Part shown: piece after piece, positions 18,497-28,312 of the stretch | How the letters are laid out: every line of letters starts with the position of its first letter | Numbering within the stretch: the first letter of the stretch is position 1 | DNA from: Geovibrio ferrireducens | Lineage (GTDB): Bacteria > Chrysiogenota > Deferribacteres > Deferribacterales > Geovibrionaceae | NCBI RefSeq assembly: GCF_026226615.1 | Contig: NZ_JAJAPB010000002.1 | Location: 1-64,000 of the forward strand | DNA: 64,000 nucleotides | Reading direction: 5' to 3' | Notes under the pieces: generated by a model | The model's input: the letters and a program-made list of their open reading frames with translations, nothing else | The model's database searches: none | Told to the model about the DNA's origin: nothing | Program-made: the position numbers and the translations under genes

Positions 18497-18946
18497 CTTC
18501 TAGGCTGCCTGTGCGGCAGTGAACATGTACGAGTGGGCGCTCTTCGCTACCGACATTTTCTAAGCTGCCTGTACGGCAGTGAACCAAGGACCCACTTCTC
18601 GACAATCAAATACAATTTTCTAAGCTGCCTGTGCGGCAGTGAACCGGCTCAATCCCCATCGCCCGAAGCAGCTTGTATTTCTAAGCTGCCTGTGCGGCAG
18701 TGAACATTAGGCACAACCACAAAACCGCATTTATCAGTTTCTAAGCTGCCTGTGCGGCAGTGAACGTTTCTCCTGCGCCTTCGGGTCCGTGTGTTGATTT
18801 CTAAGCTGCCTGTGCGGCAGTGAACTCTTTCCGCAAGAGTCAGATTCATATGCCTGAGTTTCTAAGCTGCCTGTGCGGCAGTGAACAGCGGTCATTGACG
18901 CTTTCAGGCATCGGATTATTTCTAAGCTGCCTGTGCGGCAGTGAAC
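18497..18946 (-). CRISPR. CRISPR array 1, type I-F repeats, 8 repeats and 7 spacers
   Basis: There are eight 28-nt repeats starting at 18497, 18557, 18617, 18678, 18738, 18798, 18859 and 18919, with spacers of 32-33 nt. On the minus strand the repeat begins GTTCACTGCC, has arms CTGCC/GGCAG and ends CTTAGAAA, like known I-F repeats whose hairpin is cut by Cas6f. Seven repeats have the loop GCACA; the one at 18557 has GTACA. The leftmost repeat has two mismatches, which marks the old (trailer) end. The leader is on the right, and transcription is leftward. Confidence 0.96.
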
Positions 18947-19077
18947 CGTAGACAGAATAGCAAAAAATTTTATCTATAAACAAGAAGCAAATTTTCAGCA
19001 TAAAAAACCCTTTTATTCAGTCCTTTTTGAAACAACTGGTATAAAAGGGTTTTTAATTTTGCTAAAAAAAAGGGTCA
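18947..19077 (-). promoter_or_regulatory. Leader of CRISPR array 1
   Basis: An AT-rich stretch lies between the newest repeat and the 3' end of cas6f. It holds AAAACCCTTTT at 19004, AAAGGG at 19044 and AAAAAAAGGGTCA at 19065, which lie 58, 98 and 119 bp from the last repeat base. The leader of array 2 has the same motifs at the same distances. On the minus strand the outer motif reads TGACCCTTTTTTT. The outer motif overlaps the cas6f stop codon. Confidence 0.75.
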
Positions 19078-19572
19078 AAACCAGGGAACAGTAGAAACAG
19101 AGCTTAGCCCGTATGTGCTGAACCCTTTTCCGGCTCCCGCGCCTGCTGCCTCTTCATGGCGGATGTAGAGGCGGAATTTCTGCCCGGTGCTTTTACTGTT
19201 CAGAGTTATAAAAGGCAGATCAAGCATCTTCGCTTTTGAGTCCGGAACCTTTAGCTTTGCTTCTTCTTCACTCATGCCAAACTTCCTGATGCTGCGTCTG
19301 CGGAGCCTTTCCGGGCTGCTTTTTGCCTGTACCCTGCTTACTATGCAATAGGCAGCATTATCCGGAACCTGGCGGATGCGCCCTATATCCGCATAGTCGG
19401 CCATGCGCCCCATAGCCTGATGCGAAATGACGCTCTCTAAAGACTCTTTTTCTCCGTGCAGCCGCATAACTTTGCCAAGGTTTTTCTGTCCGTTTTTTAC
19501 ATCGGGAAAACTTATGCCTACATCCCCTCTTGCCTGTTCAGCAAGAACAAGATGCAGCTTCTCAAAGAGCAT
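19075..19572 (-). CDS. cas6f: Canonical I-F1-type Cas6f (Csy4), N-terminally truncated
   Basis: This protein strongly resembles Csy4 of canonical type I-F systems, the endoribonuclease that cuts CRISPR repeats. It has the catalytic histidine in LFEKLHLVL (H7 here, equivalent to H29), VGISFPD, the arginine-rich helix SRVQAKSSPERLRRRSIRK, LPFITLNSKSTGQ and the C-terminal VPWF. It has 165 residues and lacks the first 22 or so (strand 1, HYIE...). Upstream in frame, codons VILN precede the Met and are then interrupted by TAG, so the 5' end is lost and no good ribosome site is visible. Its G+C is high (33 of 60 bases in 19141-19200), unlike the AT-rich cas genes beside it. It is probably a remnant, perhaps still foldable. 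Confidence 0.8.
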   Translation of the reverse strand: MLFEKLHLVLAEQARGDVGISFPDVKNGQKNLGKVMRLHGEKESLESVISHQAMGRMADYADIGRIRQVPDNAAYCIVSRVQAKSSPERLRRRSIRKFGMSEEEAKLKVPDSKAKMLDLPFITLNSKSTGQKFRLYIRHEEAAGAGAGKGFSTYGLSSVSTVPWF

Positions 19573-19629
19573 ATTCAGTATAACCTAATGCCAATCCTGT
19601 TTCTCCATAAAAAACGGCCGTTTGCTATG

Positions 19630-20181
19630 TTAAAACCAAGGAATAGTTGCGGTATTGCTAAGCCCAAAAAAGTCGAAACTGCCAAATGAAGGTTCAGTTT
19701 TTAACTCGCCAAAATTAATGTATCTGCGATGCTTATGCCCGTTTGAGACACTATCTAACTCAAGATATGGAAGCTCCAAACCCTTTGAAAACATTTTAGC
19801 TTTATAATTCTTTATGTCTTCTTCAGATATCGAGCCCCTATTTATTAGCCTACGAAGCTTTGACATGCTCATTGTAGGCTGTACTCTTGAGACAACTCTA
19901 TACATAACGCTTTCAGGGACAGGGTTTATCTCTGAGATAAGGCAATCTAGCTTCAATTTATCAAGCCATTCTCCATCCTCAAATTTTTTAAGCTCGCCTG
20001 CATTTCCATGTATACGAATAGTGTTCCCAAGCTTTACTTGATAATGAGGAAAGCTAACCCCGATTTCAGAACTCTTCATGTCATAAAGTTGTTTATGTAA
20101 GCATGTGTATGTTTTATTAAGCAAACAGTTTTCAGGTATATCTTTATTTGGAAGTAGCGTAACTTCAATATAATGCTTCAT
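19630..20181 (-). CDS. cas6f: Cas6f of the I-F2 (I-Fv) module
   Basis: This 183-residue full-length Cas6f begins MKHYIEVTLLPNKDIPENC. It has a histidine at exactly position 29 (CLHKQL), GVSFPHY, a diverged arginine/lysine helix (SRVQPTMSMSKLRRLINRG) and the C-terminal IPWF. It should cleave the repeat hairpin and stay bound to the crRNA 3' stem. AGAGG precedes the ATG, and cas5fv ends 11 bp upstream. It is AT-rich like cas3, cas7fv and cas5fv and clearly different from the second Cas6f at 19075-19572, so the locus has two Cas6f versions. Confidence 0.85.
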   Translation of the reverse strand: MKHYIEVTLLPNKDIPENCLLNKTYTCLHKQLYDMKSSEIGVSFPHYQVKLGNTIRIHGNAGELKKFEDGEWLDKLKLDCLISEINPVPESVMYRVVSRVQPTMSMSKLRRLINRGSISEEDIKNYKAKMFSKGLELPYLELDSVSNGHKHRRYINFGELKTEPSFGSFDFFGLSNTATIPWF

Positions 20182-20192
20182 ATTTTTTACCT

Positions 20193-21203
20193 CTAACGAA
20201 TTTTTGAAACATATGCTAATCCCTTCTTGCCAAGGTAAAAACTTGAAACACCCGCATGGTCTATAAGAGTGGATAACTCCTGCGCTCTCTCAGAACTTAC
20301 ATCAATATTGATGGTAAGACTCCCGCATGCTTTCCTCAGCGTATAAACAACCTCCCCCTCCCCTTTCAATCTCTCTTTTGCCATGTAGGGGTTGCCCCAC
20401 ACTTTTTTTTGCTCACATTTTGCATGGAATTTCATAAAATCTTTTTTCGTCAGCATCATTTTTGATATTCCGCTGATACAATTCTTTTTAGACAGGGCAC
20501 TTGAAATGTCATATTTAGTTTTTAGACGTTCAAGTTGAAGATAAAGTGCAGAGCAATAAAGGTTTAAAGGTTTTAAATTGCCTTTAGAATCAGCATATTC
20601 AACATCCTTAAAGCAGTTCTTCAATACATTAACGGCCAATGCGGCTAAACCTTCATTTTTGACACTTTTTTCTTTGTTTAACTTTTCAAGTCTTTCAACA
20701 ACTGAAATAGGATTCGGCTCTAAAGAAATATCTCCGGTAATATTTTCAATAATAAATCTGCATAATTCTTCGAAGTTTAAATATATTATTCCCCAGAGTT
20801 CTCCGGAATAGTCAGAGTTAAAAATTGGTGAATCTGTTTTGATAATACCGGAAAAAGCATTTTGGTCTGTGTTGCCGCTCATATTTCGGAGATATACGAC
20901 TTCGTTTGTAATTTTGGCTTCATCCGTGAATGTCACCTTATCTTCAATATCTTTAAAGTAATATTTACCATATTTCTCCTCATTTCTTGATTGATACAGT
21001 TTTTTCTGATCTCCAATAAGACGGCAGAGTATTCCCATAACCGTATCGTGGGTAACATCTCGCCTAAGATAGTTTTCTTTCTTTTTTTTCATACTCTGTA
21101 TAGAACCCACATAACTGCGGTCGTCCTTGGGCAAGGGTTCGTTATTGCTTCCGTCAAGAAATGAATTTCGCCATGATGATTCATATTGAATGAAAATCCG
21201 CAT
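20193..21203 (-). CDS. cas5fv: Cas5fv-like Cascade subunit of type I-F2
   Basis: This 336-residue protein resembles the Cas5fv subunit of the minimal I-F variant interference complex, which caps the crRNA 5' handle and takes over PAM recognition because Cas8f (Csy1) is absent. Support includes its position between cas7fv and cas6f, the size, the N-terminus MRIFIQYESSWRNSFLDG and the C-terminal block SSFYLGKKGLAYVSKI. Lysine-rich stretches fit RNA and DNA binding. AGGTG lies before the ATG, 8 bp after cas7fv. The identification rests on remembered family features and gene order. A search against Shewanella-type I-Fv proteins would settle it. Confidence 0.75.
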   Translation of the reverse strand: MRIFIQYESSWRNSFLDGSNNEPLPKDDRSYVGSIQSMKKKKENYLRRDVTHDTVMGILCRLIGDQKKLYQSRNEEKYGKYYFKDIEDKVTFTDEAKITNEVVYLRNMSGNTDQNAFSGIIKTDSPIFNSDYSGELWGIIYLNFEELCRFIIENITGDISLEPNPISVVERLEKLNKEKSVKNEGLAALAVNVLKNCFKDVEYADSKGNLKPLNLYCSALYLQLERLKTKYDISSALSKKNCISGISKMMLTKKDFMKFHAKCEQKKVWGNPYMAKERLKGEGEVVYTLRKACGSLTINIDVSSERAQELSTLIDHAGVSSFYLGKKGLAYVSKIR

Positions 21204-21211
21204 GAGTTCAC

Positions 21212-22156
21212 CTATTTCTTATAAAAATAAACAGCATAAGCAGATTCCGGCTTTTCTGAAATTAGACTCTCATCATGCTTGATACGCATCATTTTGTTGC
21301 TGTCGTTGTAGTCCACCAGAACAGAGTCGACAAACATATAAGATTTTGCCTGTCTGATGGATAAATCTTTGATTTTGCTGATAGTAAATTCAATTAAGCA
21401 TTGTATGGCTATATCGTCTAAAAGAATTCCAGCCTCACCTTCTTCAAATATTGTTCCTCTTCTTACGTAGTTAGAGTGAAATTCTGCTTTAGGACTCAAA
21501 TCAGGGTTAATTGACTTTATATATTGCTGGACTTCTGCTGCAACCTTTGCCCCATCATGATCTTCTATTTTCATTGCAGCACGATCAAACTTTGCATCTA
21601 AAGAAATAAACTGTAACTGTTCTATACTGATTGAACCGTATGAAATATATTTTGTATCGCCGAATGTTGTCTTTGAAAAAAAGGATGAACTGTCTCTGGT
21701 ACCTGCTTGTCCAAATTGTTCAAAATTACCGTTACCGAGCTGATCAACAAAATCTTCCAGAAGAAGGGGACTGGTTCGCTTGTTCTGTGATTTAGGTACA
21801 ACATACCCTCTTATTAAACCTGTTGCAGATGCAATAACTTTTTTCATGCCCTTATCTGATGCATAGTGGATATCAAATGCCTGCTCCCTAAATAAATGGT
21901 GACGAATACAATTCTGACTTATATAGAGGGGGGTGTCCTTGAAGTTAATATCTGTTGATTCTTTTTTATACTTATATCCATTATCTTTAACTTTTCCTGT
22001 CAGATTAGAATAACCGCGCAATTTAGGCAAAGTGTGATTTTCAACAGTTTTGCCATCTTCACCAGTAAGTACTGTGGGGCCGTTCCAATTAACAACGCCG
22101 TGACCGAGTGCTTCGATTTTGAAATCAACACTTTTAATTCCTGTGATTTTTTCCAT
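21212..22156 (-). CDS. cas7fv: Cas7fv-like backbone subunit of type I-F2
   Basis: This 314-residue protein has the size and features of Cas7fv, the repeated subunit that coats the crRNA spacer: [24 protein letters not shown] at the N-terminus, [20 protein letters not shown] and [22 protein letters not shown]. It lies between cas3 and cas5fv, as in known I-F variant loci. The frame opens at a GTG (22174), but AAGGAG precedes the ATG at 22156. That ATG begins two bases after the cas3 stop, so translation is coupled. No Csy1 or Csy2 gene exists in the locus, consistent with a minimal I-F2 complex. Confidence 0.78.
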
Positions 22157-22157
22157 A

Positions 22158-24755
22158 CTAATCTCCTTTTCCACTAATTTTACTGATATCTAAATAGCCA
22201 ACAGGCTGAGTATCAGACATGACATAATAAATTGAATTAGGATGCGGTGCTGAATTTATTTTGTTAAGATCTTCTGGTGTATAACTAAGATAGATGGGTT
22301 CAGTTTGTTTTCTGGCATTATTAAGTAACGAATTATCGTTATATGATTTCTTTGTTCCTTTGATATTATGGTGTTTTTTTGCCATAAAAGTTAAAAGATT
22401 TTTCCTGCTGTCTCCATTTCCACATATAACATGCATAGGAGCTGTGAGGAAATCAGCGTTGTCTTCTTCACTTACAGCGTAGTCATTTTTATACTCTATA
22501 CTCTGTAAAGAAGCCGCAGAACAAACTGCCATTTGTACAAACCTGTTTTCTCCTCTTAAAGAGTACTTTTTAATTTTTATTTTCACTTTTTTTGTTTCAG
22601 GAAAAGAAACAGGATCGAGAATTTTTGTATTAATGAGCTCAATACCTGTATTAAAAGACATAAGCAAATCTTCCTGAATAATTTCGTTTGAACTTTTATC
22701 TTGATAGAATTCGTTGTATATTTCGTATAATTCTTTGATAGTGACAGACTTATTAGTAATTCTATTTTTGATAAACTGATACCATCGTACAGCAGAACCA
22801 AAACAATTCTGTGAATTCAGAAAACGAGCGCATCTACTCTTTTGTCCTCCTTTTAAAATGCCTTCCGGGGCTGCATAGATGTAGATATTTTCTGCTGTAC
22901 TTTCACCGAATCTATCTAACCTGCCTAATCTTTGCAGAAAATTTTCAGCAGTTGTGAATTCTGAAATCATTGCAGAACAGCTTATGTTTAGTGATGCCTG
23001 AATTATCGGTCCACTACGCACAACATCATATTTCTTCGTACCGCCATAACAAAAATTTTGATATACCTTATCAAATAGGTTATCTCTATCCTTTTTCAGA
23101 AATTTTGAATGAAGAAGAAGAGAATTCTCATTTTTATGATTCATAATGAAACTGATTTGAGCCGTTGTTGCGGTGTTGCTGATAACGAAGGTATCTTTTA
23201 ATGGTTTGCTATAAAATGGGTTTAAATCATCATGCGCGCTTTCATCGTATTCAACAAATTGAATACGGTATGGGTTTGAGTTAAAACTCTCTATTCCTAT
23301 TACGTCTTCACAATCTATATCCAGAACATCTTTAACAAAAAGATAGTGAGGGGTTGCAGAAACTAGAAGCGTATGAGCATATTTCCCTTTGAGTTTTTTA
23401 CATTCAATCAACTCCATAAAAAGAAGATTAATTCCTGGAAGATTAATAAGTTCATGAAATTCATCAAAAATAACATGAGAATTCATAAATTGATTCAGAC
23501 TGGTTACGTGATTATGAGTTGTTATAGTGTTAATTATTTGGTCAACTGTGGTTATAACAATATCACCTGAAAACTGTTCAGAATGTTCTATCTGCTGTTT
23601 CTTTCCGTTTTTAATTAAGTACTTGAATTCTCCAGTATTAATTTCGATAGAAATTCCTGGAAGATAATCATTTGACGATAAGTCATTTAACAGACCCATA
23701 CAAACATGAATTCGCGGGCAAACCCATACTATTTTATCGGCATTTGTTAATTTCGCCCACTCTAACGCAATCTTCGTTTTTCCACACCCGGCAGGACCAT
23801 TCAGTACTGAAATATTTCCAGATAATGAAAGTTTTCCTGCGGCTTCGGACTGCAAAACGTTCCTATTGTTAAAAGGATATCTTGCCTCAAACCCTTTGAT
23901 ACAATTTTCTATATGTTCTCTAATATTTGACTTATGGCTAAATATATTTTCAACTAATTTATGCAAAGATTTATTTTTGATAAACCAGCTTAGTTCCTCA
24001 TTCTTAAGAGCAGAAACTATTCTGTCTGCTGAAATTACAGAAGACCGTATAAGACTATTTTTTGCATTTTTGAGAATCGTGCGTCTATAATCTAAAAAGG
24101 ATGATCTTTTACTGTATTGCTTATATTCAGGAAGCTTCATACCATCTAAAGATGCAAAAGGAACTTTATCTTGTGTTCTGTGGAAATCAGGTAATCTATT
24201 TGGATATCCGTAATCGTCTGCTATTGAATTCACATTATCAACAATATCAGATGATAAAATAAACAAATTATTTAGTTCATTTTCTCCTATATTTTTCAAT
24301 AGCATACTAAAGATTGTTGCTGCATCCTGAAAATCAGCCTTTCTTATGGGTTTTGCGTGGTGCCAGAATATAGCATGCTTTATTCGTTCAAGATTTTCTT
24401 GGTTAATTTTGTCAGAACGAGCCTGAAGTACAAAAAGCAAAAATGATATTTCGTTATGTCTCGGATGTTTTTCAAAAAGAGATTGTTTGTTTATGTGCTC
24501 CCCATCTTCCGGTATTTCCAAAAAACTCTTCGACAAATTATCAGAAACCCATTTGGAGTATACAGGTTCAACTTTTCCAATATCGTGGAGTGCTCCTCCG
24601 TAATATGTTGATTCGCATAGTTTTTCATCTTCCGGGACAGAAACAGATATAATTTTGGATGCAATATAGCCAACAGCAAAAAGATGCTCAGCTAAATCCT
24701 GTTTATTTGTATTTGCGTACATTCTGTTATTGGAATTATTTCTTATAGGTGACAT
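22158..24755 (-). CDS. cas3: Cas3 HD nuclease-helicase lacking the fused Cas2 domain
   Basis: This 865-residue protein has an N-terminal HD nuclease ([22 protein letters not shown], then [12 protein letters not shown]) and a superfamily 2 helicase with Walker [12 protein letters not shown] (about 327), [10 protein letters not shown] and DEFHEL in place of DEAH. The motif [12 protein letters not shown] lies in the second helicase half. Cas3 degrades the DNA strand displaced by Cascade. In known I-F systems a Cas2 domain of about 100 residues precedes the HD domain. Here the HD histidine appears near residue 24, so Cas2 is missing. The ATG is 24 bp from the stop of the broken cas1. The gene is very AT-rich (14 G/C of 60 in 22321-22380). 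Confidence 0.88.
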
Positions 24756-24779
24756 ATCAATATTTCCATTCTATTTTCA

Positions 24780-25319
24780 TTATACATTCTGCACATTTGA
24801 AATCTGTCCCAGAGCCCGTTTCAGCATGGTTTCATTAATATCAAATCTTTTTTCGTCAAAAAACCTGCTGTTAATCCATTTTTTACCTATCAAACCGATA
24901 CGTGCTGTCTGGAACATTTTTGCTGCCTCAAGCCGCAGGGTATCATCAAACCAGAACTTAGCCCAAGCCTGTAAGTACTCTGTGGGGCGGTATTCAGACT
25001 GCGGAGAAAACCACACAATGTCCGTGTTCATTTCCATCGCGCTGAAAAGAGGTGTTCCGCCGCCGCCACAAAAGCCAACCATTACCCCGGCTTTGGAAAG
25101 CTCACGCACAGCAGCCTGTGTCAGCGATGTGCCGGAGCCGAGAAGAATCACAGTTGTATTGGCAATGGGAATATTGTAGTAATGCGATTCCTTGCCCTTC
25201 TCCACCACATACTCGACCCGTCCGCCGTTTACAAGAACGCGGCAGTGTTCCAGATAGTAGAGATTTGCCCGCTTTGAAATAAGAATTGTTTTCATTTCAG
25301 AAGGAGTAAAAGTCTTCAC
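24780..25319 (-). pseudogene. cas1: cas1 of type I-F, truncated to its N-terminal half
   Basis: The 179 residues align well with the first half of type I-F Cas1 (PSEMKTILISKRANLYYLEHCR, NGGRVEYVV, IPIANTTVILLGSGTSLTQAA, VGFCGGGGTPLFSA, PQSEYRPTEYLQAW). The frame then ends after ISNVQNV. Normal I-F Cas1 is about 320 residues, and the missing C-terminal domain holds the metal-binding Glu, His and Asp needed for spacer integration, so it cannot be catalytic. Translation would start at GTG 25319, with AAGGA upstream. G+C is normal for the genome (37 of 60 in 25081-25140), unlike cas3 immediately downstream. A junction therefore lies near 24756-24800. Confidence 0.88.
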
Positions 25320-25345
25320 AGATCTATCCTTAATGCTTTTTGGAT

Positions 25346-25354
25346 ATTATAGCA
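25346..25354 (-). promoter_or_regulatory. Extended -10 promoter of the cas operon
   Basis: On the minus strand ATGCTATAAT gives a TATAAT (25346-25351) with the extended TGn motif. It lies about 27 bp before the cas1 GTG. No good -35 hexamer was seen at standard spacing. Confidence 0.55.
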
Positions 25355-25442
25355 TATCTGCAAAAAAGTTTGCTTTTCGTTATTCACTATTTGTCTTTGA
25401 GGCGGTGAACAAAAAAAAAATCAAAAACATTCCATAATCAGG

Positions 25443-25478
25443 TTGAAAAATCCTGTATACCTTATATTGTATATACAA
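25443..25478 (+). promoter_or_regulatory. vapBC promoter with overlapping palindromic operator
   Basis: TTGAAA (25443-25448) with TATTGT 16 bp downstream can serve as the promoter. The perfect palindrome TTGTATATACAA (25467-25478) overlaps the -10 and is a likely site for autorepression by the VapB AbrB-type domain. AGAGGTG follows before the vapB ATG. Confidence 0.55.
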
Positions 25479-25488
25479 GAGGTGCGTC

Positions 25489-25716
25489 ATGAGCTATGCA
25501 AAGGTTTTTAAAAGCGGAAACAGTCAGGCTGTGCGGCTTCCAAAGGAATACAGTTTTGATGTTGAGAAAGTTCGTATAAAGAAAATAGGCAGCATGATCA
25601 TTCTGGTGCCAGAAGGCGATGTCTGGGAAAATTTCAGGCTCTCTCTTGATATGTTTGACAGCTCATTTATGAGTGAGAGAAACCAGCCTGAAATTCAGGA
25701 AAGAGAGGTCTTTTAA
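25489..25716 (+). CDS. vapB: VapB/VagC-type antitoxin
   Basis: This 75-residue protein has a SpoVT/AbrB swapped-hairpin DNA-binding domain at the N-terminus (AKVFKSGNSQAVRLPKEYSF, the VagC signature). The C-terminal tail (about 50-75) would wrap the toxin. It should neutralise VapC and repress its own promoter, where a TTGTATATACAA palindrome is present. A strong AGAGG ribosome site precedes the ATG. The stop overlaps the vapC start, as in most vapBC operons. The pair lies between the cas operon and CRISPR array 2. Confidence 0.88.
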   Translation: MSYAKVFKSGNSQAVRLPKEYSFDVEKVRIKKIGSMIILVPEGDVWENFRLSLDMFDSSFMSERNQPEIQEREVF

Positions 25717-26117
25717 TGTACATGCTGGATACGAACATCTGCATTTATATCATTAAGCAGAAGCCTATGGAAATTGTTGATAAGTTTCAGTCATTCCCTC
25801 TGGGTTCAATCGGCATTTCCGTTATAACCCTTGCTGAACTTGAATACGGTGTAAGTAAAAGTCAGAGCATTCAAAAAAACAGAGACGCCTTAGCACTGTT
25901 TGTGACGCCGCTTGAGATTCTGGATTTTGACAATGCAGCAGCGGCTGTTTATGGAGAAATACGAGCCGAACTTGAAAAAAAAGGAAATATCATAGGTTCA
26001 ATGGATATGCTCATAGCCGCTCATGCAGTTTCAGTTAATGCAACTTTGGTAACAAATAACACAAAGGAATTTGAGAGAATAAAAAAACTGAAACTCGAAA
26101 ACTGGGCGCAGAAATAG
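25716..26117 (+). CDS. vapC: VapC PIN-domain ribonuclease toxin
   Basis: This 133-residue PIN-domain protein has the acidic active-site residues in MYMLDTNICIYI (D5), VITLAELEYG (Glu about 43) and GSMDMLIAAHA (Asp about 98), and ends with the usual TLVTNNTKEFERI. VapC toxins cleave tRNA or rRNA when the antitoxin is lost. The last codon and TAG stop (26115-26117) run directly into the oldest repeat of CRISPR array 2, overlapping the recognisable repeat by two bases. Pre-crRNA read-through would be antisense to this gene. Confidence 0.9.
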   Translation: MYMLDTNICIYIIKQKPMEIVDKFQSFPLGSIGISVITLAELEYGVSKSQSIQKNRDALALFVTPLEILDFDNAAAAVYGEIRAELEKKGNIIGSMDMLIAAHAVSVNATLVTNNTKEFERIKKLKLENWAQK

Positions 26118-28181
26118 CTGCCTGTGCGGCAGTGAACAGTAGTAGAGCGTTGAGAACACCCATTACAATCTTTCTAAGCTGCCTGTACGGCAGTGAACGG
26201 GTTGATGAGCAGTACTCAAAGCTGATTCTCTTTCTAAGCTGCCTGTGCGGCAGTGAACACTTACGGTAGTGTTTGTCAGGGTCACTGATATTTCTAAGCT
26301 GCCTGTACGGCAGTGAACCCTCAAAGGAACTTACGATAACGGCTTTTCGTTTTCTAAGCTGCCTGTACGGCAGTGAACATTATATCGGCTCTACAGCCAC
26401 CGCGATTTTCTTTCTAAGCTGCCTGTACGGCAGTGAACCAGAAAATCTTCAAGCTCGCTCGCTTCCATCGTTTCTAAGCTGCCTGTACGGCAGTGAACTT
26501 GCGCACTCTCGTTGCCCGCGGGGCGATACTTTTCTAAGCTGCCTGTACGGCAGTGAACCTCCATAGCGGCTTCATATCTCGCTTCCATGCTTTCTAAGCT
26601 GCCTGTACGGCAGTGAACTAGGTTCTCTCTGGTGTCAGTTAAACACCGTTTTTCTAAGCTGCCTGTACGGCAGTGAACTCAAAAAAGCCTGCACACAAGC
26701 CGGACGCTTAATTTCTAAGCTGCCTGTACGGCAGTGAACTTCTGACCGTGCGCCCTTCGGTCTTACTTTCATTTCTAAGCTGCCTGTACGGCAGTGAACT
26801 GAATTGCTAAAAGCAAGGGACGATCTTCGATTTTCTAAGCTGCCTGTACGGCAGTGAACTCAACCACCGTGCCTTCAAAACTGGTATCTGTATTTCTAAG
26901 CTGCCTGTACGGCAGTGAACATAGCCGGACTGAACTCATGCAATTTTGCTGATTTCTAAGCTGCCTGTACGGCAGTGAACGTTTTGATAACATATACACG
27001 CTATCCTTTGGATTTCTAAGCTGCCTGTACGGCAGTGAACGCCTTCCAAAAACGCCTGAATACGATAACAACTTTCTAAGCTGCCTGTACGGCAGTGAAC
27101 TCATATTCATTATGGTTGATGTAATAGCGCAGTTTCTAAGCTGCCTGTACGGCAGTGAACCTCAGCTATCGACTGAACCGTTTCTTCATAGCTTTCTAAG
27201 CTGCCTGTACGGCAGTGAACATGAGCCCGATTATCGAATCCGATGATGAACTTTTCTAAGCTGCCTGTACGGCAGTGAACGGAGTCAAGTCATTGCGCCA
27301 TTTGCCCGGCACTTTCTAAGCTGCCTGTACGGCAGTGAACAAACGCCGGAGTTGTTGAACCTGTTCCGACTTTTTCTAAGCTGCCTGTACGGCAGTGAAC
27401 ATGACTTGGCAAAAGCTGTAATGCTGCGTGAATTTCTAAGCTGCCTGTACGGCAGTGAACCTGCCCGAACTGCGGTTTCAGCAAGTGCGGAGTTTCTAAG
27501 CTGCCTGTACGGCAGTGAACGAACAAAATCATAATCCCCCTGAGTGTAAACATTTCTAAGCTGCCTGTACGGCAGTGAACCCGGCAGACCGGAGGAAAGG
27601 TGGTTAAGGCGATTTCTAAGCTGCCTGTACGGCAGTGAACCAGATTGCCAGTATATCCGCCAGCTGCAAGTCCTTTCTAAGCTGCCTGTACGGCAGTGAA
27701 CGATGCTATGATACAATATCAGGTGCCGTTTGATTTCTAAGCTGCCTGTACGGCAGTGAACGATAATGAGATTGCCCGCATGGGCATGCTTTCTTTCTAA
27801 GCTGCCTGTACGGCAGTGAACTTCCGTTATCGTCTATCACTTCCCAAGGAACATTTCTAAGCTGCCTGTACGGCAGTGAACTAGCCATGTTTACCTTACC
27901 TCGTTTTTTTAAATTTCTAAGCTGCCTGTACGGCAGTGAACGGAACATCATATCGGCGTATGGCATGAAGGCATTTCTAAGCTGCCTGTACGGCAGTGAA
28001 CCGGCTGTGACTGCTGTACCTGCACCAGATACCTTTCTAAGCTGCCTGTACGGCAGTGAACCTATAAAAAAATAACATTTTTTATTTTTGTATTTTCTAA
28101 GCTGCCTGTACGGCAGTGAACCATTAACCTCATATTCAGTCAATTCACGTATATTTCTAAGCTGCCTGTACGGCAGTGAAC
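26110..28181 (-). CRISPR. CRISPR array 2, type I-F repeats, 35 repeats and 34 spacers
   Basis: There are thirty-five 28-nt repeats from 26110 (degenerate, only 22 nt recognisable from 26116) to 28154-28181, with spacers of 32-33 nt. Read on the minus strand, the repeat begins GTTCACTGCC and ends CTTAGAAA. The hairpin loop is GTACA in nearly all units. The two GCACA exceptions are the oldest repeat (26110) and the third oldest (26231). The leader is at the right, so the array is transcribed leftward toward vapC. Repeats are otherwise almost perfectly conserved. Open frames across the array are repeat artefacts. Confidence 0.97.
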
Positions 28182-28312
28182 TGATTACATAATATCAGAA
28201 CATATTAACGCAAAACAGAAAATATTTAAAACTGCATTAAAACCCTTTTTTCTGCACCTTAGCTTCTGCATTGATAGTAAAGGGATAAATTCACGCATCA
28301 AAAAAAGGGTCA
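28182..28312 (-). promoter_or_regulatory. Leader of CRISPR array 2
   Basis: This AT-rich segment has AAAACCCTTTT at 28239, AAAGGG at 28279 and AAAAAAAGGGTCA at 28300. They lie 58, 98 and 119 bp from the newest repeat, the same distances as in the array 1 leader. The leaders are therefore homologous, and both arrays were probably expanded by the same adaptation machinery before cas1 was lost. Confidence 0.75.

Follow-up and report, generated by a model that had tools for sequence, protein, structure and literature searches.

The question raised by this locus is how a chromosomal CRISPR-Cas system of Geovibrio ferrireducens came to hold only half of cas1 and a cas3 devoid of a Cas2 domain beside two CRISPR arrays. 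The stretch of DNA analysed (the window) is 64 kb long, and coordinates are given as positions within it. The source genome is a draft of 2.97 Mb in 46 contigs, rated 100% complete with a contamination estimate of 0.08%; the window lies on a contig of 385 kb. The first-pass annotation had attributed both losses to one event at about 24756-24800 that removed the end of cas1 together with a neighbouring Cas2. This account is contradicted by the gene order of related species, by a scar of a resident csy3 gene and by the type I-Fv identity of cas3. With a probability of roughly 87%, we instead favour replacement of the effector in situ, whereby a foreign type I-Fv (I-F2) cassette took the place of the middle of a resident type I-F1 operon, leaving a predicted interference-only system.

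The ancestral arrangement is preserved at the same locus of two congeneric species, G001 and G002, in which an array is followed by cas6f, csy3, csy2, csy1, cas2-3, cas1, vapBC and a second array. In both species this is a complete I-F1 operon, with cas2-3 genes encoding 1056 to 1058 residues and cas1 genes encoding 325 or 326. In the window, vapBC and the two arrays with their leaders have been retained, but only half of cas1 and the greater part of cas6f survive. Of the genes that together define type I-F1 (csy1, csy2, csy3, cas6f, cas2-3 and cas1), only remnants of cas1, csy3 and cas6f persist, and a search of the whole genome found no Csy1, which is present in both congeners. In a more distant relative (G048 contig 1, 1004182-1008010), Cas2-3 matches in two places, as if the gene had been interrupted.

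The resident cas1 (Cas1f, I-F1; 24780-25319, minus strand) is truncated to an open reading frame of 179 codons, in which codons 1 to approximately 173 are followed by six non-Cas1 codons and a stop; the terminal residues NVQNV are not those of a Cas1. The match to the Cas1f profile covers positions 1-162 of 307, and DNA homology to the intact congener gene (325 aa) stops at approximately position 24798, after about codon 173. Over 174 residues the remnant shares 88% amino acid identity with the Cas1 of G002. Residues E190, H254, D265 and D268 of Pseudomonas aeruginosa Cas1, which we take to be the metal ligands, are matched by identical letters at identical positions in the congener protein. 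All four fall within the lost half and all four were absent when checked, bearing out the earlier claim that Cas1 is cut at 179 codons and has lost its catalytic half. For the remnant, dN/dS against the congener is about 0.05, and five amino acid changes lie on its branch compared with four on that of the intact copy. A clipped resident cas6f shows a similar pattern. The break therefore appears to be young compared with the divergence of the species, within the limits of fragments this short.

Upstream of cas1, the promoter region of the former cas1 operon (25320-25488, minus strand) is conserved in both congeners and now lies 5' of the chimeric operon. Within it, the element GTTCACCGCCTCAAAGACAAAT (25389-25414, minus strand) resembles the 5' half of a CRISPR repeat and is likewise conserved in both congeners; it may control the cas operon in the manner of a crRNA-like regulator. 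The vapBC toxin-antitoxin pair (25489-26117, plus strand) lies between cas1 and array 2, as it does in the congeners. Its dS relative to the G001 copy is only 0.12, while that of neighbouring genes is near or beyond 1, so that vapBC seems to have moved recently between species.

The cas3 gene (22158-24755, minus strand) encodes an 865-residue Cas3fv with HD and helicase domains whose motifs are intact. Alignment to the Cas3fv profile (1049 bits) spans positions 104-946 of 951, beginning only at position 104. Furthermore, the Cas2 family PF21384 (Cas3_I-F_Cas2) was matched in the Cas2-3 of a congener and in standard I-Fv Cas2-3 proteins and was absent from the window's Cas3. When the protein was aligned to Cas2-3 fusions, the match began after their Cas2 domain. 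The statement that Cas3 starts at its HD domain without Cas2 was thus correct. The accompanying comparison with known I-F systems was right as to the loss of Cas2, but the systems meant were I-F1, whereas this cas3 is I-Fv. The protein shares at most about 49-50% identity with anything found and occupies a long branch in the Cas3 tree. An I-Fv-like Cas3 of 882 residues without Cas2 is deposited as PDB 9g44, either in native form or as a trimmed construct. Since cas3 is foreign and cas1 is resident, the Cas2 absent from this Cas3 never stood beside this cas1. It is a feature of the foreign gene's family, whereas the resident Cas2 disappeared when the resident cas2-3 was lost in its entirety.

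A complete cas1 and cas2 elsewhere in the genome had been named as a finding that would refute the loss. No complete Cas1 was found outside this locus in a genome-wide search with PF01867, TIGR03637 and TIGR00287, and no Cas2 was found in the genome with PF09827, PF21384 or the whole congener Cas2-3 as queries. In relatives searched identically, TIGR03637, PF21384 and the Cas2-3 queries all gave matches. These results support the loss, genome-wide, of every recognisable spacer-recording gene, with no Cas1 and Cas2 to act in cis or in trans in a draft assembly from which plasmids may be missing. With neither a Cas1 catalytic domain nor a Cas2, new spacers should not be added, and the arrays should be frozen.

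The middle of the operon is occupied by I-Fv interference genes, all on the minus strand. Next to cas3 lies cas7fv (21212-22156; NF040577, E=1e-141, 471.8 bits, cut-off 200). Its start is probably the ATG at 22156, as supported by alignment of the sequence MEKITG, and the listed open reading frame begins with a GTG at 22174. It is followed by cas5fv (20193-21203; PDLC02041, 459 bits; PF20158, Cas5fv_helical) and a cas6f of 183 residues (19630-20181), the product of which is 32% identical to congener Cas6f and up to 59% identical to I-Fv Cas6f. All four genes are full length with motifs intact. Their G+C content is 33-37% (33.1% for cas3) against 46-50% in cas1, the clipped cas6f and neighbouring genes. 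Of the 51 genomes searched from the phylum, only this one has Cas7fv. With Cas7fv, Cas5fv, Cas6f and Cas3fv present and Csy1/Cas8f absent, the effector is of subtype I-F2 (I-Fv). The adaptation module is not, as there is no Cas2-Cas3 fusion beside cas1, which is itself truncated and of I-F1 origin.

Both edges of the cassette were inspected for traces of the earlier operon. At the left junction (24756-24798, minus strand), resident cas1 runs into the part of the imported cas3 that corresponds to the Cas2-Cas3 linker. Approximately 22-42 bp here have no significant match to resident I-F1 genes, and no traces of an I-Fv cas1 or cas2 were found at this junction. A candidate csy2 footprint, GTGCAGAATGT (12 bp, approximately 24785-24797, where cas1 ends in VQNV like Csy2), was discarded after scoring no better than shuffled sequences. 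On the right, a 43-bp csy3 scar (19591-19633, minus strand), corresponding to congener codons ~167-182, lies just 3' of the imported cas6f stop. It is identical to G002 csy3 at 39 of 43 positions, with a score of 66 compared with shuffle maxima of 27-32, and was the only significant match in a Csy3 protein search of the 64-kb window (87.5% over 16 residues, E=5e-4). Beyond it lies the clipped resident I-F1 cas6f (19075-19586, minus strand), with DNA homology from codon 18, an open reading frame (19075-19572) without the first 22 residues and 87% amino acid identity to the only cas6f of G002. The succession of a csy3 fragment and a cas6f beginning at codon 18 indicates that, on the right, the old operon was broken at two points.

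The arrays are those of the resident system. Array 1 (18497-18947, minus strand) has eight repeats, mostly GTTCACTGCCGCACAGGCAGCTTAGAAA, and a resident leader at approximately 18948-19080. Array 2 (26113-28182, minus strand) has 35, mostly GTTCACTGCCGTACAGGCAGCTTAGAAA, with a resident leader to its right that is homologous to those of G002 and G001. The repeat occurs genome-wide only in these two arrays, in 43 copies. The GCACA-type repeat GTTCACTGCCGCACAGGCAGCTTAGAAA, identical between the congener and array 1, is also the commonest repeat near I-Fv loci (25 loci), and the GTACA form of array 2 is present in six. Because resident repeats are identical to many I-Fv repeats, the swap would be workable. 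A GTACA loop is found in 34 repeats (33 of them in array 2; 26199-28182) and in neither congener's arrays, and the older, leader-distal end of array 2 carries the GCACA form. Use of the GTACA repeats as a clock was abandoned, since GTACA also occurs in I-Fv loci. No spacers are common to the window and its congeners (best 18/32), none of three spacers was matched exactly, over 32 nt, in the viral contigs, and array 2 gave no significant match to phages; where it matched plasmids, the hits resemble those to other CRISPR arrays. Resident I-F1 spacers would be expected to carry a flank compatible with the I-Fv PAM. The I-Fv system of Shewanella putrefaciens is reported to read a 5'-GG-3' PAM (PMC12714560).

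For comparison, 84 I-Fv loci were collected, of which 70 were readable, with no less than 1.45 kb of sequence ahead of the HD domain. The Cas2 domain was intact in 61 of these. In the other nine it was wholly (L036, L046, L056, L062, L082, L083 and L110) or partly (L085 and L094) missing, with effector genes intact where readable; in L036, L046, L062, L083 and L110, Cas3 begins at the HD domain and the effectors are intact. A clade of adaptation-less donors was sought and not supported: a quick Cas3 tree with long branches required nine changes for ten Cas2-less loci including the window, so that Cas2 losses are scattered over the tree and the loss recurs. Terminal branches of Cas2-less Cas3 proteins are longer (mean 0.40 versus 0.15, Mann-Whitney p=0.001), a difference that sampling could also produce. 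Remnants of I-F1 csy genes were found in none of the 84 loci, using congener csy1-3 queries that are sensitive to fairly close relatives only.

Several of these loci merit individual description. In L085 (6887-12605, a SAR324 MAG), cas1 is cut at codon 108, effectors are intact and 37 repeats are present. Codons 1-108 directly adjoin a cas3 keeping only Cas2 residues from ~77, and adaptation seems to have been lost by a single deletion in an otherwise normal I-Fv locus. L110 (7411-12525, on a 363-kb IMG/VR contig) is an adaptation-less I-Fv system comprising an 861-residue Cas3 without Cas2, cas7fv, cas5fv and cas6f. In L082 (7340-12626, Gallibacterium salpingitidis), the I-Fv effectors lie between ordinary chromosomal genes, with cas1 and Cas2 absent within 7 kb upstream. 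Two Cas6f genes lie near one I-Fv locus in a Methylococcaceae MAG (L063, 12055-14506).

In situ replacement accounts for foreign effector genes at the same locus between resident flanks and arrays. Counted against it are the absence of a close donor (best Cas3 identity 49%, on a long branch), the lack of a significant resident scar beyond cas1 at the left junction and the draft state of the assembly. A single deletion at about 24756-24800 in one ancestral I-F locus, in which cas1 lost its end along with the Cas2 domain next to it, would explain why the two truncations abut there, and such a deletion seems to be what happened in L085. We nevertheless regard it as highly improbable here: the two genes on either side differ in origin, cas1 being 88% identical to its resident I-F1 counterpart and cas3 being I-Fv with no more than ~50% identity to anything found, there is a second, scarred breakpoint at csy3/cas6f, and the synteny of the congeners contradicts it. 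An assembly chimera might be entertained for a draft of 46 contigs. However, the cassette is bordered on either side by resident flanks and scars, both arrays have resident leaders, contamination is estimated to be low and the contig is long, which together make this explanation extremely improbable. A dead locus, in which neither adaptation nor interference works, would suit a recent and messy rearrangement, and the activity of a Cas2-less Cas3 is itself a prediction. Four full-length cassette genes with intact motifs, the conserved cas1 promoter region and the uniform repeats render such a state unlikely.

Given in situ replacement, the state in which the cassette arrived allows two versions. 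It may have come complete, with its own cas1 and Cas2-Cas3 fusion, losing both through a deletion at the left junction in the same or a later event. We give this about even odds: a Cas2 domain is the rule among readable I-Fv loci (61/70) and comparable Cas2-eroding deletions are seen in L085 and L094, set against an extra step and the failure to find an I-Fv cas1 or cas2 trace at the junction. Alternatively, the cassette may already have been adaptation-less, from a donor resembling L036, L046, L062, L083 or L110. Such loci exist, one of them on a viral contig, and one step fewer is needed at the left junction, but none is closely related to the window's Cas3 and Cas2-less loci form no clade; we consider this version possible, at somewhat less than an even chance.

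In situ replacement suggests the following course. A foreign cassette of cas3, cas7fv, cas5fv and cas6f would have entered a complete I-F1 operon. The resident cas2-3, csy1, csy2 and csy3 would have been lost, and cas1 would have been deprived of its catalytic half and cas6f of its 5' end. The imported Cas6f would then cut transcripts of the inherited resident arrays, the crRNA would assemble with Cas7fv and Cas5fv, and Cas3 would degrade targets without Cas2. No new spacers would be added, and the old memory would still be used.

The window resembles the I-Fv/I-F2 systems of S. putrefaciens CN-32 and of Legionella and Acinetobacter plasmids in its cas3-cas7fv-cas5fv-cas6f order, its lack of csy1 and its identical or nearly identical repeats. 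Standard I-Fv carries cas1 and a Cas2-Cas3 fusion (PMC12714560), whereas the window is without both and its arrays belong to the resident I-F1. It sits at the same locus as the I-F1 systems of G001 and G002 and has arrays, leaders and vapBC in common with them, as well as the first half of cas1 and the bulk of cas6f, but cas2-3, csy1, csy2 and csy3 have been replaced, with only the 43-bp csy3 scar remaining. Adaptation genes are commonly missing on plasmids and other mobile elements, where chromosomal Cas1-Cas2 is thought to compensate (PMC9071438). Like these adaptation-less class 1 systems of plasmids, phages and transposons, including I-F3 on Tn7-like elements, the window has effectors without cas1 and cas2; unlike them, it is chromosomal, has kept Cas3 for cleavage and has no helper Cas1-Cas2 that could be found in the genome.

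Exchange of effector modules in situ has been described as frequent, with pressure from viral counter-defence proposed as the reason (PMC6452270, PMC12669027); the latter describes such exchange for cas9. As in known exchanges, a resident adaptation gene and arrays are kept here beside distantly related effectors, but in this case the swap destroyed the adaptation module and left readable scars. In the literature covered, which was incomplete, we found no description of Cas2-less I-Fv loci or of an I-F1 to I-Fv swap. It is conceivable, though doubtful, that interference-only I-Fv cassettes with a Cas2-free Cas3 are travelling effector replacements: able to land in resident I-F1 loci because the repeats match, they would take over the spacer memory there and escape anti-I-F1 inhibitors at the cost of acquisition. 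Within I-Fv, the Cas2 domain has been lost repeatedly while Cas3 stayed intact, as the nine of 70 readable loci elsewhere attest. Effector module exchange is generally deduced from conflicting phylogenies; in this genome, one such event has left legible scars. Memory appears to have been separated from machinery, with spacers of the old I-F1 system apparently used by a different effector.
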